From the NCBI GenBank assembly GCA_949130485.1, contig OX422197.1, positions 6,924,991 through 6,988,990 of the forward strand: DNA of 64,000 bases, read 5' to 3'. This stretch comes from Agelas oroides. Taxonomy: Eukaryota > Porifera > Demospongiae > Agelasida > Agelasidae. A program made the translations under genes and the position numbers. Positions 2,459-48,635 of the stretch are shown piece after piece (positions within the stretch are counted from its first letter, which is position 1; each line of letters begins with the position of its first letter). Under the pieces are notes generated by a model. That model made no database searches and was not told the origin of the DNA. It was given only the letters and a program-made list of their open reading frames with translations.

Positions 2459-2702
2459 CATAGATAATAGAGCACTGAAACGGGATTGGAAACGGACAAA
2501 AAATTTACGGGCAAACTCGGGTCGAAATAGCAGTCCGCCAGAAGCCATTTGACATTCAGGGAAAGAAGAAACACACATAACCACCACTCTCGCACAGTCG
2601 TCTACTGCCAATGCAGTGTGCGTCAGATCACGTGACCGAAATGATGATTCGACGTAAAATTATTGCCGTTTCCAATCCCTGTTCGTAGCTCTATTATCTA
2701 TG
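2459..2702. mobile_element. 244-bp MITE with 7-bp TSD (CATAGATAATAGAG family)
   Basis: The termini CATAGATAATAGAGC and GCTCTATTATCTATG are inverted repeats, and similarity continues inward (GGGATTGGAAACGG against CCGTTTCCAATCCC). Perfect 7-bp duplications GTTCCAT flank it at 2452-2458 and 2703-2709. The same termini occur at 46,479-46,508 and 46,608-48,357. No transposase frame is present. It lies in an intron of the coiled-coil gene. Confidence 0.9.
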
Positions 2703-3022
2703 GTTCCATTACTTGCTTGTTATGTATGCAGTACCCGGCAGTTGACATCCAGAGTCCATTTTTATCTGTCTTGCTTCTGGAACTTGTCATATTTTACTGT
2801 CAGACAATTGAACTGCTTACTTCCACTTTGCTGAATGCTGGGACCATTTGAGCTTTGACCCCAATGTGTGGTTGTTGTGTGCTCCTACTCTCCCTCCACT
2901 TCTCTCATCATTGCATGCTCCTGACAGTACATACTGCACAAACTATTTTCATTATTTCATAGTGTCAGTAAACATTCAGCATTCTGCCATTTATACTGGT
3001 ACTTGAGAGGTTTGATGTTGAT

Positions 3023-3364
3023 TACCGTATAGCGGGTATTTTTCGTGGGGGTGTATTCTTCGTGTTTTTCTCAGTCGAGTGGGGTCCACGAAAAATTAAC
3101 CCACGAAAACGTGTGACTCGTATCCCCGTGCGTGTAGTTCTACAGACAGTTGTGTCCATGAAACATGTCACTGCTACAATAGCTATCCTGCCAATAATAC
3201 TGCACAACTCTCCGTTGCGATCTCTGGTTGCGAGCATCTCTTGGTGGATGTCAATATCGAAAATTTGCTTTCCGCGAAAATTTAACCCGTGAAAATTTTC
3301 CATAATACAATAGATCGTGGTTTCGCGAAAATTTTGCCCTGCGAAAAATACCCGCTATACGGTA
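3023..3364. mobile_element. MITE with TACCGTATAGCGGG termini
   Basis: TACCGTATAGCGGGTATTTT at the left and its complement ending CCCGCTATACGGTA at the right form inverted repeats of about 23 bp. Internal CGAAAA/TTTTCG-rich subterminal repeats are also present. The TA at each edge fits a mariner-type TA target duplication. The interior is open on both strands for 75-90 codons, which I attribute to palindromy and not to a gene. Confidence 0.85.
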
Positions 3365-3420
3365 CTAGAAAGACAGTATAGACACTTATGAACAGTGATG
3401 CAAGTGCTGAGAAATAAGTC

Positions 3421-3502
3421 TAAGGGAAACATCTGGGATTCAGCTGAGATTTGAACTCAAGACCTTCTGAATACTAGTCTTACCACTAAGCCACTGGGAC
3501 CC
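3421..3502 (-). repeat. tRNA-like SINE head
   Basis: On the minus strand the sequence contains an A-box-like TGGCTTAGTGGTAAGAC and a B-box-like GGTCTTGAGTTCAAATC at tRNA-like spacing. A second B-box-like GGTCTTGGGTTGAAATCCC occurs on the plus strand near 3608. I did not fold a full cloverleaf, so this is called a tRNA-derived SINE fragment, not a tRNA gene. Confidence 0.5.
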
Positions 3503-3984
3503 CTGGACAGGGGAGTAGAAGACAACCTACCTGTAGCAGCAATGCCTGGGGGCCTCAGCTGAATTTTGTTTGATTCACACTCTCCCTCAAGTATTTAGTA
3601 TTCAGAAGGTCTTGGGTTGAAATCCCACCAGGATCCCAGGTATTTTCCGTGGGTTTCTTTCTCACTCTCTCAGCACTTCCGTCACTATACTAGCACTCTT
3701 TTAAGTTGCCTAGTAGCTACCCCTCTCCCTACTTCATGTGTCAGTACAACTCTCCCCACATCCTTGTTTTGATACAGTCCTTCATGTGCCACACCTCCTG
3801 CATGTACTGGGGAGACACCACTGTACATTATTGGTAGGGGTGGGACAGGGGTGCAGGGTGGGGGGAGACAGCATACAGTGTACTACCACAGCTGAGTCAG
3901 TCTCCAGTGTGAAGGCTGAGCATGTAGATTGACTGTAGGTGTGGTCTAGGTAGTTGCATGCTAGGTAGAAACACCACTAACAAG

Positions 3985-4075
3985 TAGCCTCGTTCCCAGG
4001 CCACTCCCCCCTCCAGTGTTTGATGGCTTGCAGTGTTTTGTTTACATGGTAGGAGAGCCTGTGGAGGAGGCCAAC
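3985..4075. mobile_element. Solo end of 9-bp-TSD MITE
   Basis: TAGCCTCGTTCCCAGGCCACTC matches the terminus of the abundant MITE group. I could not find a matching opposite end nearby, so the element is truncated or rearranged. Confidence 0.5.
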
Positions 4076-4382
4076 TAACAAGAGTGCTTCCTTCTTCATG
4101 TGCACTGATCATACATCAGTCAGTATATAATGAATTGAAAAGTGCCTAACCACGCCCAACTTAGTGAGGTGGATGTTAACAACCCTGCACATTGGTGTAG
4201 TGTGAATTAAGATCATCATGAAGTGGGTATTGAGTGTGGTGTACTACATTTAATGTAAATTTTAGCAGGAATCTATTTTTGATTTTCCACAGGTAGATAG
4301 TTAGTTTCCACAGTTAGTTTCGTAGTTCATAGTGTCCAATTGCTTTCATTATCACAAAAGGACATACACTGTCTAGTACCAG

Positions 4383-4517
4383 TGGTACTAGTGCTGGTAC
4401 TTACTGACTCGGACACAACTGTTTGTTGGCCTCTTCTGTAGCTCACCAGTGGTACTAGTGCTGGTACTGACTGACTCAGACACAACTGTTTGTTAATTGG
4501 CCTCTTCTCTAGCTCAC
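4383..4517. repeat. Direct duplication of about 64 bp
   Basis: Two adjacent copies share GGTACTAGTGCTGGTACT, then ACACAACTGTTTGTT and GCCTCTTCT. They differ by small indels. No gene is seen in it. Confidence 0.75.
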
Positions 4518-4678
4518 TAGCCTCACTGCTGGTAAAGTAGAGGACTCCTTGAGGTATCTCATGGCAGCTGTAGTTCTGTCTGACATTACCTCTTTAGAAA
4601 ATATTTTACAACTGGCGAAACAATTGCATACAACCTGGCTGTGATTGATATGAATCATGAATTTGCTGACCTTTGAAC

Positions 4679-4931
4679 CAGCAGTCATTCATGTAGACTC
4701 ACATAACATTCTGCACATAAATTTCTGGCTTTAGGGTACGACGTGCTTGGCAGCTTAAGTGCCTTTGTAGTTTATATCGACAAGAGGATGATACAAGTGT
4801 TCCAGTAGTCATTCATGTAGACTCATACATTCTACACATAAATTTCTGACTTTTGAGTGTGACTTGTTAGACAGTTTGATGGTCCCTTGTCTGTAGTGTA
4901 TGAATAGACAATTGACAATGGGATGATACAT
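4679..4931. repeat. Direct duplication of about 125 bp
   Basis: CAGTCATTCATGTAGACTCA, a following CACATAAATTTCTG, and GGATGATACA recur in the same order about 125 bp apart. The copies are diverged, so the duplication is old. Confidence 0.7.
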
Positions 4932-5412
4932 GTACTGTTTCTTGTACATGTGTATTCTATTTAATGCTGACCGTGCTGTTGTTTGTGTCCTTGAACTGTA
5001 TCTAAGTTTAGTAATAAACTATTTATCTCTCCTCATCTTCTGTGCCCCCTCCCTGTGCTTGAGCTACCCTCTCTCCTCCTCTAGTTGCCATGTTTATTTG
5101 AGTCAAGACACACGTCTGACCAGACAATTACAAACTGTGTTTATAAATGTGGTAGCAAAGAACTTTGACCTTCCCTCAGTCTAATACCTGGACTACCTAG
5201 TCTGGGTATGAGACTAACCTTCCTGTGGGTCATGTAGCTGTTAGATACAAGTGTAGTGATACAAGGAACAGCCTTGATAGTGTCTCCTCAGCATCTCACA
5301 TTGTGGTAGGTATAGAGCAAGATGATCATGTAGTAAACAGTATATTGATCATCATGGTGTAAACAATGTGTGTCCCACTTGTGACCTAATCCTGCCTTCA
5401 TCTCCCCTCCAG

Positions 5413-5433
5413 AGGATACAGGACTGGTCACAG
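5413..5433 (+). CDS. 21-bp microexon of coiled-coil/Roc/death gene
   Basis: It lies between CCCCTCCAG and GTATGT and encodes RIQDWSQ in phase 0. The ending resembles the RDYSQ of the previous microexon (both end in Y/W-S-Q), suggesting small exon duplications. At 21 bp it is easily missed by gene finders. Confidence 0.5.
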
Positions 5434-5891
5434 GTATGTACTGTACGTGTGTGTTCCTCTTGTGTACTAATCAGTAGCAGTGTCATGGTAACCAACCACA
5501 AGAGTGTGGCTAATGTCATGGTACAATATTGTGACCCATTGTTCTAGTGAGTGTATCATTATGAGCCTTAGCGTGTGTAGCTAATTGACAGGGACTTCCC
5601 CATATTGAATACCATAATGTATCATGACACATAGAATGATATGGGAAGGGGTCTAGCTGTGCGTGACTTACTGGATCAGTACCTCTCTAGCAATGGCACA
5701 TAATAGACATTCAGCACACAGAAGTGAAGGAGTAGAGTATTTGGATTGATATTTCCCACCGTACACCTGTGGAATGTGATATTGGTAGTTTTGTATGGCT
5801 GTGTAGTTGTGGGACTAGAAATGTTGTGTGATATTCATTTCACGGTCATTGCCCACCTCCTCCTCTCCCTCTCCATTACCTTCCACTGTAG

Positions 5892-5933
5892 GTGAAGGAA
5901 GAGGCCGAGCAACGACAAAGAGAGCTGGAGGAG
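5892..5933 (+). CDS. 42-bp coiled-coil exon
   Basis: The acceptor is TTCCACTGTAG and the donor GTAAGC. It encodes VKEEAEQRQRELEE in phase 0, a highly charged helix with coiled-coil character, which continues directly into the KKLLEA helix of the exon at 13,857. Confidence 0.65.
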
Positions 5934-6119
5934 GTAAGCCAAGATTGTGTGTTAACAATGGTGTACTGGGCTGTACCCCACTTACACCTAGTTGGTAATT
6001 TTATGGTTCGATTTCAAGAAAACAATCAAAGTTAGTGTTGTTGAGAGTTTTGTGGCTTACTTTTTATGGTCATGGAATTATTCTACACAACTCGTGACTT
6101 TCTAATTAAAACACACTTG

Positions 6120-6357
6120 TGCCAGTCCTGGATAGAAACTAAATATTCTGTTGCATATTTTGCGCTCATCACTGAGTTTGAACCACTGTATTGTTGAATT
6201 ACCATTGAGAGTGGGGCTCATCGTAGGTGTATGAATATCTGATGTGTCTGTGAGGTTCATATGAGCCCCACCCTAGTGGAAGTTGTGCAATACAGCTCAT
6301 TGATCGTGGTGGTGCACTCAAAATACACAATGTACTAATATTTGAGAGGACTGCCAC
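6120..6357. mobile_element. MITE with CAGTCCT termini, copy 1
   Basis: The left GCCAGTCCTGGATAGAAACT and right AGAGGACTGCCA are inverted. An inner inverted pair, GGGGCTCAT and ATGAGCCCC, surrounds the centre. The copy at 7576-7828 shares the termini and the same GGGGCTCAT core in the same order, defining a family. Confidence 0.75.
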
Positions 6358-6898
6358 ATTTATGGTAGCTCAGTGCATAGTCTTGTGAAGCCAGACTAGG
6401 CACATGTGTGAGAGTCTGGCTTTGTGAGACTACTCAATGTCAGTACAGTGGCTTTCACGGTATGAGAGGGTAGAGACAGAGGTACACCTGTGGTGGTGGA
6501 TACCTGTTGTAGGAGAGGTGCTCGTGTGTACCAGAGAGCCTGGAAACCATGGCAATCCCTGTGGTGTTGTTCTATCAAAGTATACTGGTGTGATTGTCAG
6601 GGCCTTACCAAGGTGTTTCCCGCAAGGAGATAGACCATGTCTGCTCTGATAAATGTTGGCAGCTGACTTCATTAGTATTTGAACTGTACCATATGCGGGA
6701 GGGTTACAACTACACACACTAATTCATGTACCATATTAGGAACAAGATCTGGTTTAGGTCTAAATTAATGTCCACTAAAAGTTACCAACCATACTGTGTA
6801 TTGTTGAGGGGTGTTGGTGTGAGCCGTAAGGGTGTTACTGATACCATATATGGTACTGTGACAGTGTGACTCACACTATGTGTTAAACAAGTTTCTTT

Positions 6899-7036
6899 TA
6901 GCCTCATCCCCAGGCCCCATTTAAAAAATCAGGAATAGGGCCTGGTCACACTTGCAGAAATTCTTATACGTGTTGAGTCAGCTGTCTTGTTCAGTCACAT
7001 TTGTCCATTACCAATCACCAAGTTCTTGACCACGTG
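6899..7036. mobile_element. Truncated 9-bp-TSD MITE
   Basis: TAGCCTCATCCCCAGGCCCC and the following roughly 130 bp match the left end of the element at 27,264-27,718 (shared TTGTCCATTACCAATCACC-like stretch). It stops abruptly where the next foldback element begins. Confidence 0.7.
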
Positions 7037-7041
7037 AAATA

Positions 7042-7573
7042 TCCCGTAAGCACCCATAGAAAAATAGGCACCCTGCATGAAAAGGCACCCCGCATGAAAA
7101 GACTGCGCAATTGGTGGCAAACAGAAGTGAATTTACTGATTCGGCTTTTTCAAACATAGCGGCTAATTTTTGCCAGTGTCTATCTCTTCGATTGTAAGCA
7201 AACTATCGACACAAGATATAGACCAAAAATTTAGGCAAGGCCTCTTGACAAAATGTATCCAGGAGTTAGTAAAAACCTCTCACAGATTTGTTAGTTTCAA
7301 GCGCTTTACGTTGGTGGGTGGGGGTTGGCAATGATTGATCGATATCATATTGCTGACTATATCTCTGGTTGTATGTAGAAAAGCTATAAACATTGGACAG
7401 AAATTAACAGAAAAAGAACCTCTAGGCCTAAAATATATCACGACTAATCCATTCGCACACAACTGCACACTACCAGAAAATTACAAGCACCCCATCAAAA
7501 TAAGCACCCCTCGAGAATAAGTGCTAATTTCGAAAATAGGCACCGGTGCTTATTATCCTGATTTTACGGTATA
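7042..7573. mobile_element. Foldback element rich in GCACC motifs
   Basis: The left side has CCCGTAAGCACCCATAG and AAAATAGGCACC. The right side has GAAAATAGGCACCGGTGCTT and ends TGATTTTACGGTAT. The ends are roughly inverted, but interior similarity is low. A similar motif cluster occurs at 48,845-49,070. Confidence 0.5.
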
Positions 7574-7575
7574 TG

Positions 7576-7828
7576 TGTGTCCTGAATAGAAGCAGATCTG
7601 TTTCGTATTTCGAGAGCCTCACCATATTTGAAACACTGTATCACTGAACTTTCATTATGGGCGGGGCTCATACACACTTCATGGAAACATTAGTTATTCA
7701 TGCGTCTATACGAAGCACGTATGAGCCCCGCCCTTAAGGGAAGTTTAGTGATACAGCACTTTGAACACGGTAATGTGCTTGAAACACACAATGGAATGAT
7801 ATTTGATTTCTATCCAGGACTGCCACAC
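7576..7828. mobile_element. MITE with CAGTCCT termini, copy 2
   Basis: Left GTGTGTCCTGAATAGAA and right TTCTATCCAGGACTGCCACAC are inverted. The inner GGGCGGGGCTCAT/ATGAGCCCCGCCC pair is a 13-bp perfect inverted repeat, and CTGTATCACTGAACTT pairs with AAGTTTAGTGATACAG further out. It is better preserved than copy 1. Confidence 0.8.
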
Positions 7829-8783
7829 ACAGTGTTACCCTCCTCTTCCCCCCTCATTGTGTTCACTGTTTAGAGGTGTGTCATAATTAGGAAGTAGTTT
7901 GTACATTGTCATCAGTGCAGTACAAGTGGGTGTGGCAGTGAAACAGGCATTCATATCTGATGGGAAGTGCCTAAGTTCACCATGATCCATGTTGCAGTTA
8001 CGTTATTTATTTATTTTTAACCATCATGCTGCCGATAGTTAAATACATTAGACCATTCAGTGTGCCTGGTCACGTGAAGTAGCTTATTGGCCAAATTGTT
8101 AAGGGAAAGGGTTAGGACTAGGGTTAGGTTTATGGCTGGGGACAGAGGATGCATTTTTTCCCTCTGGAATGTGATTAACATCTTTGTCTTTGTTGGTTTG
8201 GTAGTCTCTTATGGGTATTCAATAAGATGACGTAGCCGCAACATGGATTGCGGTGAACGTAGCCTCTCCCATATGTGATGGTAGCAATAAGGTTGGTTGA
8301 CAAAGCATTTCACTAGCATCATTCCCAGGCCCTTCCCAAATCTAGTTTGATTGTAGAACAGAGAGGACCTGAAATAATTAATCACATGGGTGATGTAGAG
8401 GATAGAGAGAAGGTAGAGAGGACTTAGTGGAATGTAGGCAGATTGTCAACTGTGCCCACACATGCAGTTATGCAGTCATGTAGCTGTGTTCTGACAGGGA
8501 TCTGTTCTGGCAGTTTTTTTGAGCAGTGTAGTAGTGAAAGTTTGAGGAAAGCCCGGGAAGGTGCATTCTTAGGGTTTGCTGTCACTTTGAAAGCAATTCT
8601 CTAAAGGGTATGTATGGCATTCAATTTGCCAGGTAAGCGAGGACGTTAAGGTAATTTTCAAACTTTCTAGTTTGTGTACACTCACCCATGACTTGCCGTA
8701 CTACCAGACAATGCATTGTGGTCCTGTTCAGTCCCCGGCCATAACACTTTCGCAACTAACCAAGTGTAATTTGGACAAAACTT

Positions 8784-8972
8784 AGCCTCATTCCCAGGTG
8801 AGTGTCTGGGAATGAGGGTCAACAAAACAATCAATGAAGTGTGGGAAATTGCCCACATACAGTTAAGTTCTCTTCACCTGTGACATTTCTCACATTTTAA
8901 GTTTTTCCAGGCTCTCCCCTTTCTGTTCGGAAGTTTTCATTCACTTATGGAAGTGCCTGGGAATGAAGCTAG
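8784..8972. mobile_element. 9-bp-TSD-group MITE without visible TSD
   Basis: The left end is TAGCCTCATTCCCAGG and the right end CCTGGGAATGAAGCTA. The flanking 9-mers do not match. A second inverted copy of the terminus (CTGGGAATGAGGG) lies only 11 bases inside the left end. Confidence 0.6.
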
Positions 8973-9065
8973 CATCCAAGTACTGAATTGGAGTAAACTA
9001 CATGTGTGTCACCCTCCTTCCTCCTTCCCTCCCTCCCCCTCACCCTCACCCTCTCATCTCCGTTT

Positions 9066-9127
9066 GATTTTGTTGTTGACCCTCATTCCCAGGTGAGTGT
9101 CTGGGAATGAGGGTCAACAACAAAATC
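9066..9127. repeat. Perfect 27-bp-arm hairpin
   Basis: Arms at 9066-9092 and 9101-9127 are exact reverse complements, separated by the 8-base loop GTGAGTGT. The arm contains CCCTCATTCCCAG, the MITE-terminus motif, so it is probably a head-to-head MITE remnant. Confidence 0.9.
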
Positions 9128-9212
9128 AACAAAACACGGGTAATTTCATGTGCTTAAAATTGGCTCAGGAATATAATTATGATCTTAGCGTCAAGTGGAC
9201 CACAGAGCTTGT

Positions 9213-9362
9213 CCTACCTCCTCTCCTTCCCTCCCTCTCTCCTCTACCTCCCTTGTCCTTCTCTTTCTCTCTCACTCCCTTTCCCCCTCCTTTCTCTTCC
9301 CCCTTCCCCTCCCATTCCATCCTCCCTCTTCTCCACCTCACTCTTTCCCCCCCTCCCCCCTC
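9213..9362. repeat. Polypyrimidine (CT-rich) tract
   Basis: About 150 bases are nearly pure C/T on the plus strand. It is one of several such tracts in this intron (also at 11.5, 12.2 and 12.9 kb). Confidence 0.85.
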
Positions 9363-10194
9363 TGAGTGGCTAGTCCCATTCTGTCATACGACACATCATA
9401 TTGCCCTCCCACCTCATTGTGTTGTGTTTGTAGAGATGTGTTCTAATTAGAGAGTAGTTTACAGTACGGTTGGTGTGGTGTTGAAATCTCTCTTGGTATC
9501 ACATACACAGTCTTGGTATCATGGTCAGGATTTTTAGAAGGGAGGCACGTGTACCAGAAACCTGGGGGAGGGTGTGGCAGGAACCAAAGTGGTGTTCGTA
9601 CGAAACCCCTCACTCCCCTCTTCTTTCCTCTCTGTGGGCTCAAATCTACTGATGTCACTCCCACAACATAGAAATGATAGAATGTACATTCATATATCTG
9701 CCAGTAGCAGTGAAGTTAGTGGGATGGGATGGATAGAACATTTTATTAAGTACCCCAAATTTATAGGTAAATTTTCACATCCATTTGCCCCCACCCACCC
9801 CCAAAATTTTATTGCTAGATTACAAGTAAAGGATCTGAGCAGGGGCATAGTGAAGAATGATTGAAGGTGTTTCTGGAAACCACCTTTAGATAAAAAATTA
9901 GACACAAGTTTTACACTAGCAGCTATTGACATGTCGTCATTTGTTGAGTATACAAAGACAACAAGAGCTTCCTGAATGTAGCCAAAGTGCCAATGCTGTC
10001 CTTCCCTTCCAATCCCCCCACTCCCCCCCACTTCTCACAAGTTAAACAAAGGGAACATTGTAACTTCACATATATGAATGGAGGATGGGTTAACACAATA
10101 ATGTGCACACACTAAATCTTTTTCCTCCAGTAAAAACACTTTGTTGTGGAAAATATTTATGGGAAAGAATAATGGGGCAATCAAAAAAATTAAA

Positions 10195-10224
10195 CCCCCC
10201 CCCCCACACACACACACACACGCA

Positions 10225-10269
<45 letters not shown>

Positions 10270-10311
10270 CACACACACCACACACGCACACACACACACA
10301 CCCACACACAA
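10195..10311. repeat. Poly-C then (CA)n microsatellite
   Basis: A run of C leads into about 105 bases of CA repeat with scattered CG and CC interruptions. Confidence 0.95.
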
Positions 10312-11723: not shown

Positions 11724-11727
11724 CTAG

Positions 11728-14719: not shown

Positions 14720-14722
14720 TAA

Positions 14723-18512: not shown

Positions 18513-18661
18513 AAAAATTTTTGATCATGCAATTTTACTTCTAATATCTCTCTAAGGCAGGCAACTATGCTAAACATTTTCTGCTGTACTTTACATGTAA
18601 TTAAAAAGTTTTACCTCAATTAAAACCTACAGTTTAGAGACTGTTATTTTTCTTCCAACAG

Positions 18662-20770
18662 AATCAAAGCGTTTCTTAGAAAAAGCATTGCGAAAAGGAC
18701 ATATACTAGCGCGCATGACAAAGTGTATCTTCACAGGATACGCTGGAGCTGGAAAAACGAGTCTTCTATGTCTTCTGCTTGGTGTGAAGTCGCCTACCGT
18801 TCGGTGTAGCACACCATGTGCTGAGAGCCCCATTCGTGTCGTTTCAGGGACTCGAATACAGTTACTTGGTGAAGGGTGGGTCAAAGTGAGCATTAAAGAG
18901 TTAGAGGAGATGGTGGCGAGTTACATACCAATCCTGTGCGACACTGTTCCAGATGAGGTGGTTCCAACTGAAGTGCGTGAGTCCCTCTTCCAACAACAAC
19001 AATCAAGTGATGTTACTCGGGATAAGGCTACACCCACCTCCCAAGATCAGGCTGGAACCACTTTCCAAGATTCAGCATCATCCATCTCCCTGGATCGGAC
19101 CACTAGCTCAACTTCAGATGCTCCAAAACAGGCCACTACTAGCTTACTGGATGATCTGGTGAAGCGATTGAATCAACTTGCCATGGAAAGCACCAAAGAG
19201 TCAGAAGAATCCAGAGATTTTAGTAATGCGAACTGGATTCACCTGATTGACAGCGGTGGCCAGCCACAATTCTATGACCTCCTTCCCATCTTCATTCGTC
19301 ACACCTCCAGTATTGTCCTTGTCCAACGACTCTGTGATCGCCTTAATGAGCATCCCATAGTCGAATACTATGATGAGGAGGGCAATCCCATTGGTACGCC
19401 ATACCGCTCTCTCTTCACAAACCTGGAGATTCTGATGTGCTTGACACGCGCAATGCACTCACATCCAACTGAAGGCAAGTATCCAAGGATCATGTTAGCT
19501 TGCACACACAGGGATATGGAGGAAAAATGCACTGAAACACGAGCTGAGAAGAACCAGACACTCTTCAAGCTTCTCCATCCTCTTTTTCGCAAAGACCTCG
19601 TACTCTATGGAGATGCTATGGAGCCCATTTTCCCTCTGAATACAAAAGAACCAGATGAAGAAGACAAGAGAGTTGCCAAGCTTCTGAGGCAAGCAATCGA
19701 GAGCTCTGCCTCTGATCCAGTCAAGATCCCACTTTGGTGGTACTTCCTGGAAATAGCCTTAGGAAGGCTAGCAGCTATGCTAGGCAGAAGAATCCTGAGT
19801 CGAAATGAATGTCTTTGTATAGCCCACAACTTCGGATTCCCTGAAAAGGAGTTTGACGCTGCGTTGCAGTATTTTCACCAACTCAATATTTGCCTTTACT
19901 ACCCTGACATACTTCCAGATGTGGTGTTCAGTGACCCACAAGTGCCACTGGACAAGGCCTCGGAACTTGTGCAGCATAGCTACAAACTCCAAGAAGGTAA
20001 ACAGGGCAAGAAGTCTGAAGGCCCACAAGAAGCTTTAGAAGCTGAGTGGCTGAAGTTTCGAGATCAGGGGATTGTTCAACTACGCTTTCTTGAAAAGTTT
20101 CCACAACACTACAGAGAGGGACTTTTCACTCCACCCGATCTACTCGAACTATTTGAACATCTTTTGATCTTTGCTCCCCTCACAAGCAATGAATACTTCA
20201 TGCCCTCACTGCTACAGATGCTCCCTCCTGAGAAGCTTGAGGAGTACCGTGCTCCCTACTCCTCACCAGCAGCTCCTCTTATCATCCACTTTCCTCATGG
20301 TTGGCCTCGTAGTGGAATCTTCTGCTGCTTGGTGGTGTTCCTGATCAACCACTGTCAGTGGCAGGTCTTACTTCCAGACACAGGATCTCCCATCCTCATT
20401 GCTCGAAACTGTGTCAAGTTTAGAATTCCCCGTAGCGCTTGCACAGTCATGCTCATCGATTCGTATGCTAATTTTGAGGTCCATATCAGTGCCCCATCAC
20501 CAGTTTGCCGCAAGATGTGCCCCACCATTCGAAACCTGATATTTGACGGGATCGATGCAGCTGCTACTAATCTTCGGTATAATAATTCAACGCCGCAAAT
20601 TGCCTTTATGTGCACTCACACTCACAGTGGCAATGGTCAGACTAGCAGCAGCAAACCAAGTATTCCACCACATGCAGCAACCATTACAGAAGACCAGGAG
20701 TACTTGGAGTGCACCATAGATGCACAGTTCGGAGAACTGACTGAGAGGGAGAAAGTATGGCTCCAACCAG
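18662..20770 (+). CDS. Roc GTPase plus COR-like exon
   Basis: This 2.1-kb exon encodes a Ras-of-complex-type GTPase followed by a COR-like region, expected to act as a nucleotide-dependent switch in signalling. G1/P-loop GYAGAGKTS is at 18,736-18,762, the G3 motif DSGGQ at 19,249-19,263 and a G4-like THRD at 19,504-19,515. Downstream, LWWYFLEIALGRLAAMLGRR and VVFSDPQVPLDKASELV fit a COR-like winged-helix region. G1 and G3 are separated by about 160 residues, far more than usual, including a Ser/Thr/Gln-rich stretch at about 19,000-19,150. The acceptor TTCTTCCAACAG ends at 18,661. The first in-exon ATG (about 18,715) is too close to the P-loop to be a convincing start, so an upstream exon is needed. 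The donor is CAACCAG|GTAATT with one base over, which matches the downstream exons. Confidence is high for the GTPase and moderate for COR. Confidence 0.85.
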
Positions 20771-20857
20771 GTAATTATAATAATAGCTCCTGCTGCATGT
20801 ATTTCATAAGATTCATGAGTGATGAAACTTTAGATTTCATGTATTTCCACTCAGCAG

Positions 20858-20932
20858 GTGCAGTAGTAACTCCACACACAGGACCCTCTCAACCTCCATC
20901 AAACCCTCCCTCCACTACAGTTGACAAACCTA
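20858..20932 (+). CDS. Optional Pro/Thr-rich linker exon
   Basis: A 75-bp exon follows TTTCCACTCAGCAG and precedes GTAAGC. It enters with two bases and leaves with one, so it can be included or skipped without frame change between the GTPase exon and the 21,349 exon. It encodes AVVTPHTGPSQPPSNPPSTT and VDKP. The tandem acceptor TCAG/CAG allows a 3-base alternative start at 20,855. The intron before it is only 87 bp and stays open, so intron retention is also possible. Confidence 0.6.
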
Positions 20933-21348
20933 GTAAGCCTCTCACCAGCTGGGTCCACTACAGAGTAGATACGTTAATTTATGAATACAGATTATTCCCC
21001 ATCACAGCTAAAAAGCCAACTCTAAGCCAGGAAGCTCTTGCAACGTTTTCATCTTTCTAGTAGTACCATGCTAATCTCATTCTTAAAAGTGGCAGACATT
21101 CTAGAGAGTTGTTAGGTTAACCTTAGGTGCAAAACTTGTGCTTGCTATCTCAGAATGGGTTCTTGAGTAGCTGGTATTACTGTTGTAATACAGCATATCC
21201 TTCAAGATGGTATTTCAAGCTTTAGGTACATGGACATATGAAGTCCAATGGGTCTATGGTGGTTTGCATGCATTGATAATCTGCACAAGTAAATTTAAAT
21301 TTATGTTACAGTTCTACCTATTTAAACACAATGTTATGTGTTTTCTAG

Positions 21349-28933: not shown

Positions 28934-28997
<64 letters not shown>

Positions 28998-36350: not shown

Positions 36351-36354
36351 TTAT

Positions 36355-40264: not shown

Positions 40265-40369
40265 CTTTGTTGCGTATGCAGAGAAATGAGAGGAAGTCAC
40301 TCAAAAAGTTTGGGGGGGGGGTAGGTACCTTTTGCATACACACTAATTCCTGCATGAAGTAGAACGAAC

Positions 40370-40489: not shown

Positions 40490-41494
40490 CTGTAGTGGTG
40501 GTGGAACAGCTGCAATGGTTTCGCAACCCAGGCAACACACATGGTGGTGGGTGTGGCCTGGAGACAAGGCCATCTTAGCTTCATCCCCAGGCTCTGTTCA
40601 GCTTTTTGTCACTTGCAATATCTTTCTGTACTGCTGAGACAGAAGCTGAGTGGAGGCCTGAGAACGGCACTGAGGTAGCCCTGTTCTAGTTCAGAACAAA
40701 GGGCAGTAATTCCCAGCTGGCTAGACTGAGCATGATGCTTCCAGACAGCTTTTAGTAGTAGCCACCATCACCCAGGCTAGCAGATCGAAGCTAGCTAGCT
40801 GGGCAGGATGCCACTTTAGACAACTTCACTGTAACAAGGTGTCGTTGAGAGCAAGCTGAGTTGTAGCCTCACAGTTAACCCCGAGTACTGGGAAGGGTTG
40901 CTCTTTACTGACTGAAAGTGCAGGGGCTTAGGGATGTGTTCAAGACGCTAGGTGTTACAAACACTTCTGTTTCTGAATAAGCCCTCAATGAAGAAGGCGC
41001 ACAACAAATTCAATGCACACTCATCGTGTGTCCTCCTCCACGGAAATCTTTAGTAAAAGGCGAAAGATTTATTCGCTCTGAAGGAAGACCAGAGTTGATA
41101 CGAGCTCAAAGCGCTGGCTTTTTATACCGCTACAGTGAACGAACCGATTGTGGGTTTTGCGGTGCTGCAAATTGGATTCATTCACACTTTATTAGTTCGT
41201 GAATAATCACAAAAAGACTATGAATAAACTTATGCTGCTATGAATAAATCAACAAAACCACACACAAGCTGTCGGGACATTGAACACAGAAACTGCCAGA
41301 CTGTTTAGCTGTCAGGCAGAAGCTGCCATTAAACTGCAAAAATAGTATTAGGTAACCTTTTTATAACACGTAGAATATGACAGTATAATTATGCTACTTT
41401 GCTATCCAGTAGGAGATGGCGATACTGCATGCAGGGAAAACAATGAACAACAACTCAAGTTGCAATAGCTAAGTTAGCCCTCCCAGCACTTTAC

Positions 41495-41581
41495 CGGTCG
41501 CAGTGGGAGGTAGACAGTCTTAGCTCCAGCCATCTTTGACATGGGAGTGTAGCAGTCGAAGAACGGCTCTATCAGAATCAC
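41495..41581 (-). CDS. KYAT3: KYAT3-like exon 6
   Basis: This 87-bp exon encodes [20 protein letters not shown] and KTVYLPLRP. The EPFFDCY motif stacks on PLP in this family. A partial copy of its 3' end and donor region lies in the adjacent intron at 41,723-41,757. Confidence 0.93.
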
Positions 41582-41904
41582 CTGCAGCAGTGACGAAGAA
41601 TTAGACACTCTGTCATATGGTTTGTAATCAGTGAAATTTCTCAATTTTGGTCAGCCCATAAAACAACAAATCCAGTGACCTTACCGTACCTATTAATCCA
41701 TATACAGTAAGAAAGGGTGGACCTTACTGGTCACAGTGGGAGGTAAGTAGAAGCTGGAGAACCAAGGCCCTCCCATGCATGTTTGCAGAAATATTCCAGA
41801 AACAACCCCACATCCAATGTCATAGCCATAGAGAAACCATGCAGCTTTGAGATAAAATCCAGGGAAGGTTTGGATATGGGTAAACTACCAGAATATGGTG
41901 CAAG

Positions 41905-41983
41905 AGCCTTGTACCCAGGTGCCACTCCAGGCCACACCCCTAGGAGCCGGGGTATAGGGAGGAGCCAGAGTACAAGGCTAATT
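41905..41983. repeat. Short foldback with AGCCTTGTAC ends
   Basis: AGCCTTGTACCCAGG and GAGTACAAGGCT are inverted, resembling a diverged MITE of the 9-bp-TSD group in intron 5. Confidence 0.55.
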
Positions 41984-42016
41984 AGATAGCTTTAGTAACA
42001 TAGACACGCACTGTAC

Positions 42017-42088
42017 CTCATCTCCAGGTTCCAGAAAAGCACGGGTGGCGTGTCCAAGAGAGGTATAGGCACCCAGAGTAGTGATAAC
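42017..42088 (-). CDS. KYAT3: KYAT3-like exon 5
   Basis: This 72-bp phase-0 exon encodes VITTLGAYTSLGHATRAFLE and PGDE. GAYTSL is the PLP-phosphate-binding loop. Acceptor CTTCTAG, donor GTACAG. Confidence 0.92.
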
Positions 42089-42152
42089 CTAGAAGAGTCA
42101 AGCATCTTCTCTGCTATCTTCTCTCTCTCTGAGCTGTACTGTTAGTGTTGGG

Positions 42153-42260
42153 TAACCTTGTTCCCAGGCCACACCCAGATTTTATCTCGCAGCCGTGGAG
42201 ACCCCGATTTTTCTCCATGGCTGTGAGATAAAATCTGGGAGTGGCCTGGGAACGAGGCTA
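42153..42260. mobile_element. 9-bp-TSD MITE in KYAT3-like intron 4
   Basis: TAACCTTGTTCCCAGGCCAC and GTGGCCTGGGAACGAGGCTA ends flank CCCAGATTTTATCTC/GAGATAAAATCTGGG arms. Flanks AGTGTTGGG and CGTGTTGGG match 8 of 9. Confidence 0.85.
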
Positions 42261-42374
42261 CGTGTTGGGGTCCTATTTCTTTATCATTCTCTCTTTTTTT
42301 CTCCCCTTCCCTCTCTTCTTCCCTCCATCCCTTCCTCCCTCCCCACCCCACTCCTCTCTCCTTGAGGCACAGAC

Positions 42375-42452
42375 CTCAGTCATGGGGTTGATCTCCCTTC
42401 CGTGAAGAATGCTATACATCTTCGCAAGTGCCTTCACTAGCCGTGGGTGACC
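42375..42452 (-). CDS. KYAT3: KYAT3-like exon 4
   Basis: This 78-bp phase-0 exon encodes GHPRLVKALAKMYSILHGRE and INPMTE. Acceptor CCATTAAG, donor GTCTGT. Confidence 0.9.
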
Positions 42453-42460
42453 CTTAATGG

Positions 42461-42568
42461 TGTGTGAGTGTGTGTGTGTGTGTGCGTATGCATGGGTGCA
42501 TGCATGCGTGTGTGTGTGTGTGTGTGATTTGCATGTGTGTGTGCATGTGTGTGTTTGTGCGTGCATGC
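42461..42568. repeat. (GT)n-rich microsatellite
   Basis: GT repeats with GCATGC interruptions lie immediately upstream of the exon 4 acceptor on the minus strand. Confidence 0.9.
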
Positions 42569-42690
42569 AGAGTATGGCAGTAGCTGTTAACAGGCCAGGA
42601 ATAAGGCTACTGTCAGTTGTTTTAATCCATTGTGAATCCAGGTAAGTCAAATAAACCATGTCCACAGAGGAGACGGTATTTCAGCTTTAC

Positions 42691-42783
42691 CTGGCTGCGT
42701 GTGTATTGGTTTAGGAGTGGCGTCTTGGCAGCCTCAACAAGAGCATCCACCACAAACTGGGGTGGGCTATAGTCTGGAAAACC
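42691..42783 (-). CDS. KYAT3: KYAT3-like exon 3
   Basis: This 93-bp phase-0 exon encodes GFPDYSPPQFVVDALVEAAK and TPLLNQYTRSQ. GQGFPD (from the previous exon) and NQYTR are family hallmarks. Acceptor TCTTTCTGCAG, donor GTAAAG. Confidence 0.93.
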
Positions 42784-43128
42784 CTGCAGAAAGACAAATG
42801 TTCTTATTGCACAGTAAGATATGATAGCATGTATCACACACCAACTACAGTAGAGAAAAGGACAACTAGAACACTAAAATTACTCTGAAATGACGATCTT
42901 GTGCTGCATTTTATGGCTCTAAGATGTTTGCAATTAGAGATTACACAAAACTAGCTATCTGCTTTATGAAAATCATTCGTGGCTCTCTTAGCCAAGTTCA
43001 ATTTGCTTATCTAGTCTCGTTCCAGCTTCCTAGGCCAGAATGAAGAGTGGGAAGAGGGAAGGGGAAGGCCTGGCAATGAGGCAAAGTGACACACTCTGTA
43101 AGAATGAGGAGCTAATATACTTGCTCAC

Positions 43129-43180
43129 CTGTCCAAGGTTCACAGCCTTAGTCTCAGCAGCCAGTGCTGTGAATTCAACC
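43129..43180 (-). CDS. KYAT3: KYAT3-like exon 2
   Basis: This 52-bp exon completes Trp with one base and encodes VEFTALAAETKAVNLGQ. Acceptor GCCTTCCAG, donor GTGAGC. VEFT.LA and VNLGQ are conserved in kynurenine aminotransferases. Confidence 0.93.
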
Positions 43181-43253
43181 CTGGAAGGCAGAACAGTTAC
43201 AGTAGAATGAGTACAATATGGTATTTTTGTTGGTTAAAGAGGCACATACGTAC

Positions 43254-43291
43254 CAGAGATTCTTATCGACACCATCCAGGCGCTTGGCCGG
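43254..43291 (-). CDS. KYAT3: KYAT3-like exon 1 (first one found)
   Basis: This 38-bp exon encodes PAKRLDGVDKNLW with two bases of the Trp codon at its end. KYAT3 is a PLP-dependent type I aminotransferase (kynurenine to kynurenic acid via transamination) and also acts as a cysteine-S-conjugate beta-lyase. An upstream exon with the start codon and any mitochondrial targeting peptide is required, because this one opens in phase 0 after CTCCCACAG without Met. I did not find it. The exons run on the minus strand, convergent with the plus-strand candidates at 37.7-38.4 kb. Confidence 0.85.
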
Positions 43292-43476
43292 CTGTGGGAG
43301 AAGAGAACCAGTGGCTCAGTTCATATGACTACATCAGCTACTCAAAAGAGCTAATTAGCAAGAAAGTATAACTCCAAATGAAAAAAAAAAGTTTGCTTGC
43401 ATGCTCTTTCCCATATGCACAGTAGCTAACAATATTTTGATGTCATGGGCCAAATTAGAGGGAAGTGAAAAGCTGG

Positions 43477-43549
43477 CAGTCACTGGGAATTCGGAACCCA
43501 GGGTACCTGGCTTGAGCCTGCCTGTGCTCTAACCATTGAAGCATGACTG
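43477..43549 (-). repeat. 73-nt tRNA-like sequence
   Basis: On the minus strand, CAGTCAT and GTGACTG pair as a 7-bp acceptor-like stem. GCTT/GAGC forms a D-stem with a loop of CAATGGTTA, and CTGGG/CCCAG forms a T-stem around TTCCGAATT. The anticodon stem does not pair well. The length is 73 nt. I read it as a tRNA pseudogene or SINE head, not a working tRNA. Confidence 0.4.
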
Positions 43550-43579
43550 CGGGACAACCACCAGCCTCCACAATCCTAC

Positions 43580-44300
43580 AAGTCACAAAAAAGTTTTCCG
43601 AATGAAAACAAGTGCATGTAGGGATGGAACCCTCAAAAACCAGCCAAACAAGATGGGAACGACACCACAACACATTCACACCATCCCTACATCTTGTGCC
43701 ATTTTGCCAACTATGTTAGTTGTGTGCATAGGAGGCAGTGGGGAGGGTAGTGCTGGGTGTTTAGTGCATGTTGATGTGCATGGAGAGTGTGGGTGGCTGC
43801 AATGTAGTTGCTACTGAGCATGGCAGGTATAGTCTGTCTTGTATGCAGAAACTGTGAGCAGCGCTGGATCTGTACGGTAATATTGTATGTTGGGAGTTTT
43901 AAGAAAACCAGGAGCTAGCTTTGAGACCACTTAAAGTTTATCTGTCATGTTGAGGGACAAGGAACACTGTCACATTCCCATGTCAATATGGTATGGGAAT
44001 GAGGATAAAGCAGCTCTAATCTCAAGTTATGTTGTGAAATTTTATTGCTGCTGAATGTGGCAGATATGGATTGTCTTTTATGTGTGGACTGAGCAGTACT
44101 GAGTACCGTGTTCATTTAGCAGGTGTGAATAGGCAAAGTGCATGTAGAGAGTTTTTTGGTGTGCATAGTTGGCAAAATGGCACAAGATGTAGGGATGGTG
44201 TGAATGTGTTGTGGTGTCGTTCCCATCTTGTTTGGCTGGTTTTTGAGGGTTCTATCCCTACATGCGCTTGTTTTCATTCGGAAAACTTTTTTGTGACTTG
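43580..44300. repeat. 721-bp block with about 135-bp inverted ends
   Basis: AAGTCACAAAAAAGTTTTCC and its complement at the right bound the block. It is closely related to 35,290-36,350 but with a shorter, different centre. Confidence 0.85.
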
Positions 44301-46150
44301 TTCCTGCTCTTTTTTTTTAGAATGGTAAGGAAGGCGAGGGGAAGATGCATGGTCTGTAAAGTATGAAAGCATAAAACTGTGTTGTTCACAAAGAAAAAAG
44401 AATCATCATATACATTCAAATGCTTCCAAGTGAAATTGTAAATTTATCTACAGGGTTTAGAAGCCCACATAAAACCCAAGCGCAAAGCACATGAGTTGTA
44501 TGAGGCTTTGCACACAGGCTTATAAATCCCATAGATCCTATAACGCTGTGTTGTCAAACTGATTTAGACTATAGCTACTCACTGTAAAACTGTTGCTGTA
44601 ATGGTGGCTTACAACTCAATACTACATGTATGTGAGCTCTGTGGGGATGAAGTCTGCAGAGAGTTTTTCGGTGAACCCAATAGTAATCCACATGAAGTGA
44701 GCGGGAGCTGAACAACTGCCAGTTTCTGCGACCGCCTCCTTTAGAGCGGAAGTTTTATGAATGAAGCCACCATTGACTTGGAGCTATTAACTAGTTTGAG
44801 GACCAAGCTGCCAATAGGCTGCTAATTGCTGCGTTGGAGGAATGTGAAGATTCAGGCACAACACAAAAGGAGGATGTTAAGAAGACACCAGCCAAAATGC
44901 TACCATCAACTCTAAGTAAACATTGTATGTAAACATGTACTATATGCATTTTCGTTGTAAACGACCATAGCAAGCAAATTTGGAATTTGAAAGCTGAAAA
45001 TAAATATCAGTGGCTAGTGTTCTAAGTTGCTAGCTAGTGTTAAGTTGCCAGCTATTATTTTAACCATCAAGTACCTCGTATCTATAGGATTAGCAACTGA
45101 CCAGATTACAGAATGACTTCAGCTATAGTCCAAACGGAAGTAGAAACTGCTGCACTTGCAATCTACACGCTTCATTTACAGTAGCTCTAGTAATACACAC
45201 CTTAGAATATTTCTCCAGGAGGCATGCACATTCCCTCTCTATGTTTTGCGTTATACCACCTGACCTCAGGGCCGTAGCCACCGGTCCGGTTAGTCCGGTT
45301 TCAACCGGACCACTTTTTCCCTCACCCATGGCTTGCTTGGCGTCGCCAAATAGGGCCAATGCTTGGCAAACGCCCATGGCGCGGGCACGCACACAGCGTG
45401 GTGACATGTTGCAACATAATACGAGATGGCTGCGAACAGTGCGAAAGACCAAGTCTTCCAACAATTTTCCGTTCTTCCAACTGAATGATCTGCGAAGGTG
45501 TGGCTTGTAAGATTAGCGAACATTCGGAAAAACGGGCAGAAAGGGTAGATGTTCATGCATGTAAAACCCTGTCGTCTGGCCTCCGAGAACCATCGTTTTG
45601 GCCCAAAAATGGTATCAGAAGCAACCTCATAGCCTCTAAATTTCCTGGGGGGGGGGGGGGGGGGGGGGGCATGCCCCCAGACCCCCCTAGCTGTTGCGTG
45701 CTTACGTACGCACCACTAACCTGACCACTCAAAATTTGATGGCTACGGCCCTGGGCTGTTGCAGTCTTCATCTTGTCACCGTAAGCTATATCTGAACACG
45801 TGCTCAGTTGAGCTTCCGGGGGCATAGTTTCTATGAATAATATTCTAACAAAATGGCGGTATAGCACTAAGCATTAACATCGGAGTGCTTGAGAATCACT
45901 GCAGAATAGTTCAAGTTCTACGAGAACGATAAGTAGTGAGTACAATACCAAGTGATTTATGCTGTTCTTTTGCGTTTGAATCATTGTAATAGCTTCAGCC
46001 GTTGTCGTGCTATCGTGGTGGAGAAAAGAAAGAAGAAGAAAGAAGAAGTCAGAAGATAGACGATTTGCCCGTTTTAGCGACTTGCCGGTCTGGTACTTTA
46101 GCGATGCTCTCCAGTGAAGTTAACAGTCTCGCTGCTCATGGAAGCTCATG
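44301..46150 (-). mobile_element. Composite transposon, right (inverted) copy
   Basis: Block C (44,455-44,545), block A (44,705-45,012) and the poly-Ser ORF region (45,985-46,115) match the left copy in inverted orientation, while block B (44,560-44,702) matches in the same orientation. The decayed repeat-protein region is absent. A hAT-like element at 45,268-45,755 interrupts it. Confidence 0.6.
45268..45755. mobile_element. hAT-like element with CAGGGCCGTAGCC ends
   Basis: CAGGGCCGTAGCCA and TGGCTACGGCCCTG are perfect 14-bp inverted ends. A 23-base G run lies at 45,647-45,669. No clear target duplication is seen. CCGGTCCGGTTAGTCCGG recurs inverted near 48,825. Confidence 0.7.
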
Positions 46151-46478
46151 GAGGCCTTTGACTAATCTAACGCAGACATTTCAAGTGTGTCATTTGTGCA
46201 CTTTTAATGTGGCCGCCATTTTTTTTTGAGGTCATCCCTACATATGGCGTACTACCGTACGCCATGATATACGTACTTCACACTGTACTGGATGCTCCAG
46301 TCACAACTCCTGGGGACCACCCAGTATGTGCTGTCTGATGGAGTTATTGATAGCATGTACTTATTCTCACAGGCCAGACTCTTACGTGGTTGGGGGTGGC
46401 TGCCAGGTTTTGCGACTAGACCACCTCTGCAGTATAAAAGAGTGTAAGGGCCGGTGGTTGCCCGGTGGTGTATCAAAC

Positions 46479-46508
46479 CATAGATAATACGAGTCTCTAT
46501 TATCTATG
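46479..46508. mobile_element. 30-bp minimal copy of CATAGATAATAGAG family
   Basis: CATAGATAATA and TATTATCTATG face each other with only CGAGTCTC between, and perfect 7-bp ATCAAAC flanks lie at 46,472-46,478 and 46,509-46,515. It is essentially two termini with nothing in between. Confidence 0.85.
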
Positions 46509-47340
46509 ATCAAACGTGCGTATATCAATTTTTAAAACCAGGCAAGAGGCAAGTGCCCTAAAGAAGCTGCTAAACGGACCACAGACAGCTTCTATATTAA
46601 ATATATCCATAGATAATAGAGCGTAACCGGGATTGGAAACATCTCAATTAACGCGGCCACTCCGCGTTACCGGAAGTAGTACTTCCGGTCACGTACATAA
46701 TGAGGCAAGGTGAGCGTGGCGGTACAGAGCTATGAAACCAGTGCGTGTTTATCGCGTCGGACGCTCAGACGCAGTGGTTTACATGCAGCTGGAGTAACTA
46801 CACTACAGCTACAAAAGATGGAGCACGACTAGAGAGGCTCCTCATGCATGTACACTGAAGTTGCAAGAGCACATAACAATGGCAATGCACTAATAAATAC
46901 ACACACTAATACACTATACAGTTGTACAAAGAAACTGCTAACAAACTCTTGAATGTTGAGTTGCCATGTACACAACCTCTTTGGCACTGAAAACCAGAGA
47001 ATTGGGTCACTGAAGCAGAGTCCACTGGATCAGAAGAATCAGTCATTGAGGGTGAGTGAAAACATAACATGGGCTTGGAATGCTGGGAGCGTAGCGATAA
47101 GTTTGCACCAGACTTGGTGGCTAGATATCAACTTGCTGTCATGGAATTGGTACTGTGAATGGTAATCATGACTGGCGGTTCCCTGCAGATACGGAGTAAG
47201 ATTGTGTTTCGTGCTTCATGTTTCCTCTCTTCTCTCTTGCCAATGCATGCCCAACTGAAATTGTCTCCCACCCATATCTGTAATGTGTACAGGGAGTGCA
47301 TACATGTAGCTAAGAAAACTAGTTACACAAAGACAAGAGC

Positions 47341-47707
47341 TAGTCTCGTACTAGTCTCGCAAGCCAGACCCACTTCCGCAAAAAAAAAAAGGGAAAGGTC
47401 TGGTGAACTGCGTACACAAGCGAAAGAGAGCTAGGACATATTTTCCACTACTGCAGGAGTTGTAAAAACACTTTGACTATACTTCTCAGAGAGCGTGCTT
47501 ACTCCGCAACGGGAAATTCAAGAGTGCATTATTTGAAATCTGGTTACGTCATCCAGCTAATTGCATTCTGGTGGGACACGGCTTGTGTATGTAGTTCACC
47601 AGACCCTTCCCTTCTTTTGCGGAAGTGGGTCTGGCTTGCGAGACTAGTCTCGTACCCAGACTACTTTTCAGCAGGCAAAAAAAAAAGTGGTCTGGAAACA
47701 AGACTAG
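47341..47707. mobile_element. 9-bp-TSD MITE, split by another MITE
   Basis: The outer element has TAGTCTCGTACCCAGACTAC-type ends (split at 47,351/47,656) and the right end GTGGTCTGGAAACAAGACTA. It is flanked by perfect GACAAGAGC at 47,332-47,340 and 47,708-47,716. Without the insert it is only about 63 bp long. Confidence 0.88.
47352..47646. mobile_element. 9-bp-TSD MITE inserted into a MITE
   Basis: TAGTCTCGCAAGCCAGACCC and GGGTCTGGCTTGCGAGACTA are the ends of a longer inverted repeat. GTCTCGTAC lies at 47,343-47,351 and 47,647-47,655, and this target is itself part of the outer MITE's terminus. Confidence 0.92.
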
Positions 47708-47757
47708 ACAAGAGCTAGGCCTACATCAAAAATGAAATGTCCATAATCTCTCCCCCA

Positions 47758-48056
47758 CAAACTGCTCCCCAAGAAAGTTTATGGCATTGTGTAATATTAC
47801 CATGCAATACTTTAGACTCAGAGCTTTCTTCTGAAATGTTCTAAACCAAAGCCATAAACCTACACTGAGAGCAACTGCTTCACAAACTTCTTTACCTACC
47901 GTAGGCTAAATACGGCAGTATAGCTTCTGTAACTGAAGGAAAAAATGTTTCTAGCATCACAAATTATTACCATGCAATACTTCAGACTCGGAGCTTTCTT
48001 CTGAAACGTTCTAAACTAAAGCCATAAACCTACACTGAGAGCAACTGCTTCACAAA
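47758..48056. repeat. Direct duplication of about 105 bp
   Basis: TTACCATGCAATACTT through AGCCATAAACCTACACTGAG and AGCAACTGCTTCACAAA occurs twice, about 180 bp apart, with few differences. Confidence 0.88.
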
Positions 48057-48635
48057 AGATTAACTAAACAGAGGCGCTCGTTTAAAGCTTTAAAATGACT
48101 ACACCAGAATCAACTATCAGACACAAATTTTAGTTCTAATTGTAGCGCAACCCTTCCCAAACCGCATAATACCCCCACAAAACTCACCAGCTTCAGTACA
48201 CTTCTCGCTTCTGAAGCTTTTTTGCTTGTCGGTCGGTCGCTCCTTCTCCCTCAAGGCAACCCACAGCTGCAACGCGGAGTGTCCGCGCGTTTAACTATGG
48301 AATATATGCGCATCACGTGAGATGTTTCCAATCCCGGTTACGACTCTATTATCTATGATATATCATAGTACATGTTTCTACTCTCGAGGTTTCGTCTCTC
48401 ACCGCAAGTTTTGCAGACGCCATCCTGGCTGTCCCAGATGTCTGCAGCTGCCTGCAGCAACAGATTCTCGCCCCGGAAACCCTCCACAGCAAGGATAACG
48501 AACTCCTCAGCATCATAGCTGATGAGTGACCTAACAATACCACAACAAGAGTGATCAAGCCACACCCTCGAGTCTCGTGCCCAGACCCATCTTAAATCTG
48601 GGAACGAGATATTAAAGTTTACTGTCTCGGAAATA

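Follow-up and report, generated by a model that had tools for sequence, protein, structure and literature searches.

Three repeats lying in a 64,000-nucleotide stretch of the genome of the sponge Agelas oroides (GenBank assembly GCA_949130485.1, contig OX422197.1, positions 6,924,991 to 6,988,990 of the forward strand; this whole stretch is called the window below) raise the question as to what kind of transposon they belong to, and how one of them, which is only 30 bp long, came into being. The data presented here make it very probable that the window repeats are non-autonomous transposons of the P superfamily, and that the 30-bp copy and most of the short two-ended copies (called minis below) present in the genome are footprints left by excision with P-type transposases.

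Three Copies With the Same Termini

The termini CATAGATAATA and TATTATCTATG and perfect 7-bp target duplications are present in all three copies, the features of which are as follows (window positions):

2452..2458 and 2703-2709, no strand: 7-bp target duplication GTTCCAT, from the sequence and the inverted-repeat scan
2459..2702, plus strand: 244-bp non-autonomous copy, E1/E2 subfamily, left end GAGCACTGAAAC, right end GAGCTACGAACA
2482..2489, plus strand: subterminal GGGATTGG box of the 244-bp copy, 23 nt inside the left end
2672-2679: mirror box CCAATCCC of the 244-bp copy, from the sequence
46472..46478 and 46509-46515, no strand: 7-bp target duplication ATCAAAC, from the sequence and the scan
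46479..46508, minus strand: 30-bp mini, E5 subfamily (GAGACTCGTAACC ends), read as an excision footprint
46601..46607 and 48358-48364, no strand: 7-bp target duplication ATATATC, from the sequence and the scan
46608..48357, plus strand: 1,750-bp non-autonomous copy, E4/E3 subfamily, left end GAGCGTAACC, right end GAGTCGTAACC
46629..46636, plus strand: subterminal GGGATTGG box of the 1,750-bp copy, 21 nt inside the left end
48328-48335: mirror box CCAATCCC of the 1,750-bp copy, 22 nt inside the right end

The coordinates and duplications reported for these copies in a first-pass annotation of the window were thus confirmed; as regards the longer terminus given there, the CATAGATAATA part is common to all the ends and the bracketed GAG is absent from the left end of the 30-bp copy. 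When the window was scanned for 7-bp duplications around inverted repeats starting with CA (repeat of 10 nt, at most 1 mismatch, span 20-6000 bp), the scan yielded exactly these three copies and none in the reversed window, while the same scan with 6-, 8-, and 9-bp duplications gave 1, 2, and 0 matches, respectively. The exact 11-mer occurs six times in the window, at the six ends of the three copies. When 2 mismatches were allowed, 25 matches were obtained vs. 19.0 expected, and only exact matches to the 11-mer are therefore informative.

Ends that are the same or nearly the same as those of the 244-bp copy are carried by copies of 598-1,500 bp elsewhere in the genome, and the 1,750-bp copy has a 1,747-bp relative at G000:C1:14513504-14515250 (locus L061). 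No transposase frame was seen in the 1,750-bp copy, which contains no open frame of 130 aa or more. It harbors a nested inverted-repeat element of about 295 bp (window 47352-47646, ends TAGTCTCGC), with an apparent 9-bp duplication GTCTCGTAC at 47343-47351 and 47647-47655, as read by eye.

The Family at the Scale of the Genome

The 14-mer CATAGATAATAGAG occurs 374 + 394 = 768 times in the 259-Mb genome and the reversed pattern 1 + 2 = 3 times. The motif GGATTGG was found 4-24 bases after CATAGATAATA at 184 + 181 genome places (reversed control, 0), 36 of these 365 places being read as sequence. Twelve long copies could be paired end to end, 10 of them elsewhere in the genome and 2 in the window: all 24 ends carry the GGATTGG box 20-25 nt in, and the 7-bp duplication is perfect in 11 copies and shows a single mismatch in the remaining one. 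The claim that this is a transposon family generating 7-bp target duplications is therefore borne out genome-wide, both by these long copies and by 41 of 51 minis in which the duplication is perfect. When the 44 distinct duplications were pooled over both strands, the palindromic target consensus RTNNNAY emerged, position 2 being occupied by T, position 6 by A, and position 1 by G or A in 80% of the cases each; the mean match of the duplications to GT...AC was 2.59 of 4, vs. 1.0 for 7-mers of the window.

One copy of 6,165 bp with intact E5 ends and the duplication GTTAAAA was found at positions 3601-9765 of locus L063 (G000:C2). Two frames were recognized in it by eye, one of 1,214 aa that resembles an endonuclease-reverse transcriptase, and one that is PHD-like. 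This copy was rejected as the autonomous form; it probably contains a nested non-LTR element, which we take to be CR1-like.

A P-Type Transposase Between Closely Related Ends

The profile PF21787, which covers the N-terminal RNase H region of these enzymes, gave 48 matches in this genome and none in 14 control genomes. A copy of 4,572 bp (G000:C2:19467839-19472410) has a terminal inverted repeat (TIR), CATAGATAGTAGAG, the first 14 bases of which are identical at both ends; it is flanked by the duplication GTGACAC and has a GGATTGG box located 22 nt inside. Its frames match PF21787 (RNaseH_N, E 6.2e-27), PF21789 (RNaseH_C, E 7.9e-7), and, in two frames, PF21788 (the GTP-binding insertion, E 2.3e-6 and 2.3e-5), and the best solved relative obtained with phmmer was the Drosophila P transposase 6p5a (E 2.7e-7). 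Three transposase copies are 99.3-99.4% alike across the 3.4 kb compared, and the family has therefore moved or been duplicated recently.

The end CATAGATAATATATGCACGGAA, followed by the GGATTGG box, is common to two transposase relics (L070 and L087). Their second end was not found within the flanks examined, and a 351-base end query from L087 matched only the two known copies. At four other transposase loci (L076, L077, L079, and L082), there was no recognizable end in the sequence at hand.

The ends CATAGATAATA and CATAGATAGTA start with CA(T) and form terminal inverted repeats, as expected in the P superfamily, and a duplication of 7 bp, one of the two lengths (7 or 8 bp) belonging to this superfamily, was found in the long copies and minis counted above and in the transposase-bearing copy. 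Because of the frames matching PF21787, PF21788, and PF21789, the CATAGATAGTAGAG ends, the box, and the 7-bp targets similar to those of Galileo, the window copies are filed as non-autonomous P-superfamily elements, with reservations about the end base and the THAP domain.

Facing the transposase gene, an open frame of 336 aa is also present on the minus strand of the 4,572-bp copy (L064/L101); it is possible that this is a second gene of the element, and the 285-aa part scanned gave no Pfam match. The whole copy sits within a structure with TAGTCTCGCGGAGC ends and the 9-bp duplication GGCTTTTGT.

Minis: Number, Size, and Target Duplications

Exact facing 11-bp ends spanning 22-52 bp were found at 236 places in the genome, and a further 133 places carry the sister termini CATAGATAGTA, the control giving 0 in both cases; minis with a change inside the 11-mer, such as one in L005, are not included in these counts. 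The 30-bp copy is not unusual, since it is one of hundreds of similar short palindromes in the genome. Flanks were available for 51 minis (50 listed of the 236, plus the window 30-mer), in which the 41 perfect 7-bp duplications comprise 34 distinct ones, and an 8-bp duplication was present in none of 50.

These duplications are also what would be expected if the minis themselves were mobile, that is, if they were two-ended units of 22-48 bp making their own 7-bp duplication upon each insertion. Two further observations fit this idea: the same 46-mer occurs at 5 places and a one-base variant of it at 5 more (4 of which share one flank), and the site of one mini was found to be empty in 15 paralogous repeats. 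Against it stand the 76 distinct sequences among the 92 minis read, which argue for many independent births, and the fact that 89 of these 92 have lost the box kept by all 24 ends of the 12 paired long copies. The recurrent 46- and 48-mers are moreover expected from fill-in and blunt joining of ends (23+23 and 24+24), and one long copy (L004) also has the AAAG variant of the 46-mer at its end. We consider it very unlikely that the minis are mobile.

Sorted by length, the places number 74 at 34-39 bp, 60 at 40-45 bp, 27 at 46-47 bp, and 25 at 48-78 bp (11 of them at 48-52 bp), overlapping places being counted separately; the 22-33 bp class comprises 64 places, a value obtained by difference (236-11-27-60-74). 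The density is about 11.5 places per bp at 34-47 bp vs. 0.8 at 48-78 bp, which amounts to an approximately 14-fold fall past 47 bp. In the CATAGATAGTA sister family, 46 of the 50 minis listed (of 133) measure at most 44 bp, three measure 47 bp, and one 48 bp. The matches listed at 40-45 bp (50 of 60), at 34-39 bp (50 of 74), and for CATAGATAGTA (50 of 133) were given by place only, with one CATAGATAGTA sequence.

Internal deletion after insertion, by hairpin extrusion of a long inverted repeat or by replication slippage, would also yield short two-ended copies. The ends are indeed inverted repeats (the arms in the window copies measure 34 and 37 nt, at 88 and 86% identity, respectively), and many minis are near-perfect palindromes. 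This process nevertheless leaves the fall beyond 47 bp and the fillers at the joints unaccounted for, and gives no reason why the retained ends should usually stop at a family-specific point, 21-24 nt in, on both sides. It therefore seems most improbable that the minis originated in this way.

Retained Ends and Joints

Sequences were read for the 50 loci, the window mini, 23 minis of 48-78 bp, and 18 of 46-47 bp. Left out were two of the 25 places at 48-78 bp, namely C17:315638 and C10:9030490, both of which enclose a smaller mini; of the 27 at 46-47 bp, 9 were already among the 50 loci. The GGATTGG box is kept in 3 of the 92 minis. The length retained was determined end by end by comparing parents with minis, taking the longest unambiguous end pieces and giving the position of the box as the number of nucleotides before GGGATTGG. 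The tabulated part of this comparison covers the minis with at least 15 matching nucleotides at both ends; the window 30-mer is too short on one side.

The retained length usually follows the position of the box, with the exceptions given below. E4 (box 21) and E1 (box 23) retain at the longest 21 and 23 nt, respectively; E3 (box 22) retains 22 nt five times, E2 (box 23) 23 nt, E5 (box 24) 24 nt three times, E9 (box 21) 21 nt, and E8 (box 24) 23 nt. This pattern bears on the idea that the minis are products of interrupted gap repair, that is, of aborted synthesis on the sister chromatid, similar to internally deleted P elements. Copies of 244 to 1,750 bp without any transposase do exist, and the 3 minis keeping a box could be explained in this way, but gap repair is expected to leave ends of any size, and nearly all the minis read stop at the box or within 1-2 bases of it at both ends. 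Interrupted gap repair is accordingly an extremely unlikely source of the minis.

The joints resemble those made by end joining. An exact 23+23 joint is present in 10 of the minis read, in two sequence variants, four minis of one variant sharing a flank, and an exact 24+24 joint in 2. The other joints show short overlaps of the two ends, or fillers of 1-24 nt in the better assigned minis; a filler of 38 nt was found in one poorly assigned mini, and that at C7:803178 repeats TGAAAC. An unpaired E5 end in L063 (about 3405, G000:C2) stops at exactly 24 nt, and is possibly a footprint from which most of the other end has been lost.

The 30-bp copy can be read in the same way. Positions 46479-46489 would correspond to about 11 nt of one end and positions 46488-46508 to about 21 nt of the other, the two pieces sharing a TA microhomology, and there is no GGATTGG box at either end. 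Its minus strand starts with CATAGATAATAGAGACTCGTA, which is identical to the first 21 nt of E5, the end type GAGACTCGTAACC of the 6,165-bp copy in L063 with which it was compared by eye, and its right end reads GAGACTCGTA, placing it in a subfamily other than those of its 244-bp and 1,750-bp neighbors. It is best read as the excision footprint of an element with GAGACTCGTAACC ends. The two origins suggested in the first-pass annotation, a minimal mobile unit and a hairpin-mediated deletion, are both less likely than a footprint: minis of this kind number in the hundreds, the ends they retain usually stop at a family-specific place, and their joints resemble those made by end joining. Derivation from a longer copy, which was also considered there, is probably right in substance.

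Excision as the Probable Origin of the Minis

Taken together, these data suggest the following process. P-type transposases encoded in the same genome would insert the elements via a 7-bp staggered target cut, giving the RTNNNAY duplication. Upon excision, one strand would be cut at the end of the element and the other about 21-24 nt inside, near the GGGATTGG box, so that the two 7-bp duplications would remain at the donor site, along with one single-stranded tail from each end of the element. End joining would then close the gap by fill-in and blunt joining, via a short microhomology, or with a filler, and the product would be a short palindromic footprint, mostly 22-48 bp in length. We infer from the products that the minis come from excision and that their size ceiling reflects the position of the strand cut, which, by analogy with the excision of Drosophila P, would lie about 21-24 nt inside the ends. 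The matching of individual transposases to subfamilies is likewise presumptive. We also put forward, tentatively, the idea that the inner cut may be placed by reading the GGGATTGG box instead of by counting from the end, the tails measuring 21, 22, 23, or 24 nt depending on the family, and that several hundred natural scars may record this chemistry along with the end joining of the host.

Several observations weigh against an origin by excision, against the rule relating it to the box, or against the assignment to the P superfamily. The sequences read are those of 92 minis only. Ten of the 51 minis with flanks have no perfect 7-bp duplication, three of them by a single mismatch, as judged by eye; in seven minis (L014, L017, L018, L027, L031, L033, and L040), the flanking 7-mers are clearly different, L017 and L018 sharing their flanks, as would be expected after exchange between copies or loss of a flank. 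Among the 50 CATAGATAGTA minis listed, 13 measure exactly 33 bp, which may be due to copying with a host repeat or to a preferred joint. Retained lengths exceed the box position in E2 (39 nt once and 24 nt twice), E3 (30 and 23 nt, once each), and E5 (25 nt once); those running 1-2 bases past the edge of the box can be chance matches. In the unambiguous minis, E6 (box 26) reaches only 23 nt and E10 (box 24) only 22; as these two stop short of their own box, guidance of the cut by the box is favored, not proven. Two further unpaired exact ends, in L006 and L059, have no box and are unexplained.

As regards the autonomous member that the first-pass annotation proposed looking for, the 4,572-bp copy carries a P-type transposase, the gene of which may or may not be intact, between near-identical ends: CATAGATAGTAGAG differs from the CATAGATAATA-type end at 1 of 14 positions. 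The P-superfamily transposase was thus found in a CATAGATAGTAGAG-ended relative, and no complete copy with exact CATAGATAATA ends plus a transposase was present among those read. The THAP domain, which is not treated here as an essential feature, was not found in the open frames scanned, the gene model being incomplete, and a C2CH pattern search covering the initial 1,500 bases of the copy also gave no match.

Lastly, two flank searches revealed no locus at which a long element is present in one paralog and a mini in another. That with L046 (40 of 1,236 candidates scored) yielded 4 mini copies with one shared flank, 15 empty sites, and no long copy, and that with L015 (40 of 595 scored) yielded 6 places where the mini had traveled within a host repeat. 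One mini site is nevertheless a true insertion site, as it is crossed by 15 paralogous repeats with a single copy of the target. Since these empty paralogs fit both a long insertion followed by excision and the insertion of a mini, they do not decide between the two.

If the minis are indeed excision footprints, a reference genome can serve as a natural cleavage assay, in which the maximum length of the footprints reveals where a P-type transposase makes its inner cut, with no need for bench work, and the types of joint report on germline end joining across evolutionary time. Very short copies of miniature inverted-repeat elements (MITEs) with perfect target duplications can then be excision scars, which matters for insertion counts and for claims about minimal mobile units.

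Other Features of the Window

A U5 spliceosomal RNA gene (88.9 bits) is present on the minus strand at 40980-41097. An open frame of 819 aa at 18601-21060 contains the P-loop-like sequence GYAGAGKTSL and looks ROCO-like when read by eye. Frames resembling non-LTR reverse transcriptases, also by eye, extend over 49062-52124, starting about 700 bp to the right of the 1,750-bp copy, and frames in which one motif (FKNTNNFSVQKAHKAVQ and similar sequences) recurs many times occupy 51964-63874, apparently as a large repeat array.

Comparison With Known P-Superfamily Systems

Among the titles and abstract openings of the part of the literature covered, no earlier report of a genome-wide set of P-type excision footprints was found. 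The 7-bp duplication, which the first-pass annotation called uncommon among superfamilies, is already known in at least one, as Galileo, a P-superfamily element of Drosophila, generates 7-bp duplications with the consensus GTAGTAC (PMC2775673). This consensus is similar and not identical to the RTNNNAY observed here. Unlike the present family, Galileo has long, internally repetitive TIRs (PMC2775673).

Zebrafish Pdre2, the end of which reads CATACCTGTCAAC, and THAP9 resemble the present family in having a P-type transposase, ends of the CATA... type, subterminal inverted repeats, and internally deleted relatives, whereas they differ in their 8-bp duplication, the sequence of their ends, and the presence of a THAP domain (PMC10983969).

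The closest parallel in terms of excision is with the Drosophila P element, the end of which is CATGATGAAATAACATA (PMC2895639). Its transposase cuts one strand 17 nt inside the end (PMC7776569), and in the joints left by induced excision, the 8-bp duplication is accompanied by as many as 17 nt from each end and by microhomology or filler (PMC2895639, Table 1). The likenesses include the CAT...ATG ends, an RNase H-type transposase with a GTP-binding insertion, a strand cut that would lie well inside the element, and footprints retaining both target duplications and part of each end, with microhomology and filler. The sponge family differs in that the duplication measures 7 bp instead of 8, the cut deduced lies at about 21-24 nt instead of 17 and seems to track the GGGATTGG box, and the frames scanned showed no THAP domain; its footprints are inferred fossils in a reference genome, whereas those of P are laboratory products. 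The 17-nt stagger of P elements is known to be unusually long, and a still longer, box-guided stagger would be a variant of it.

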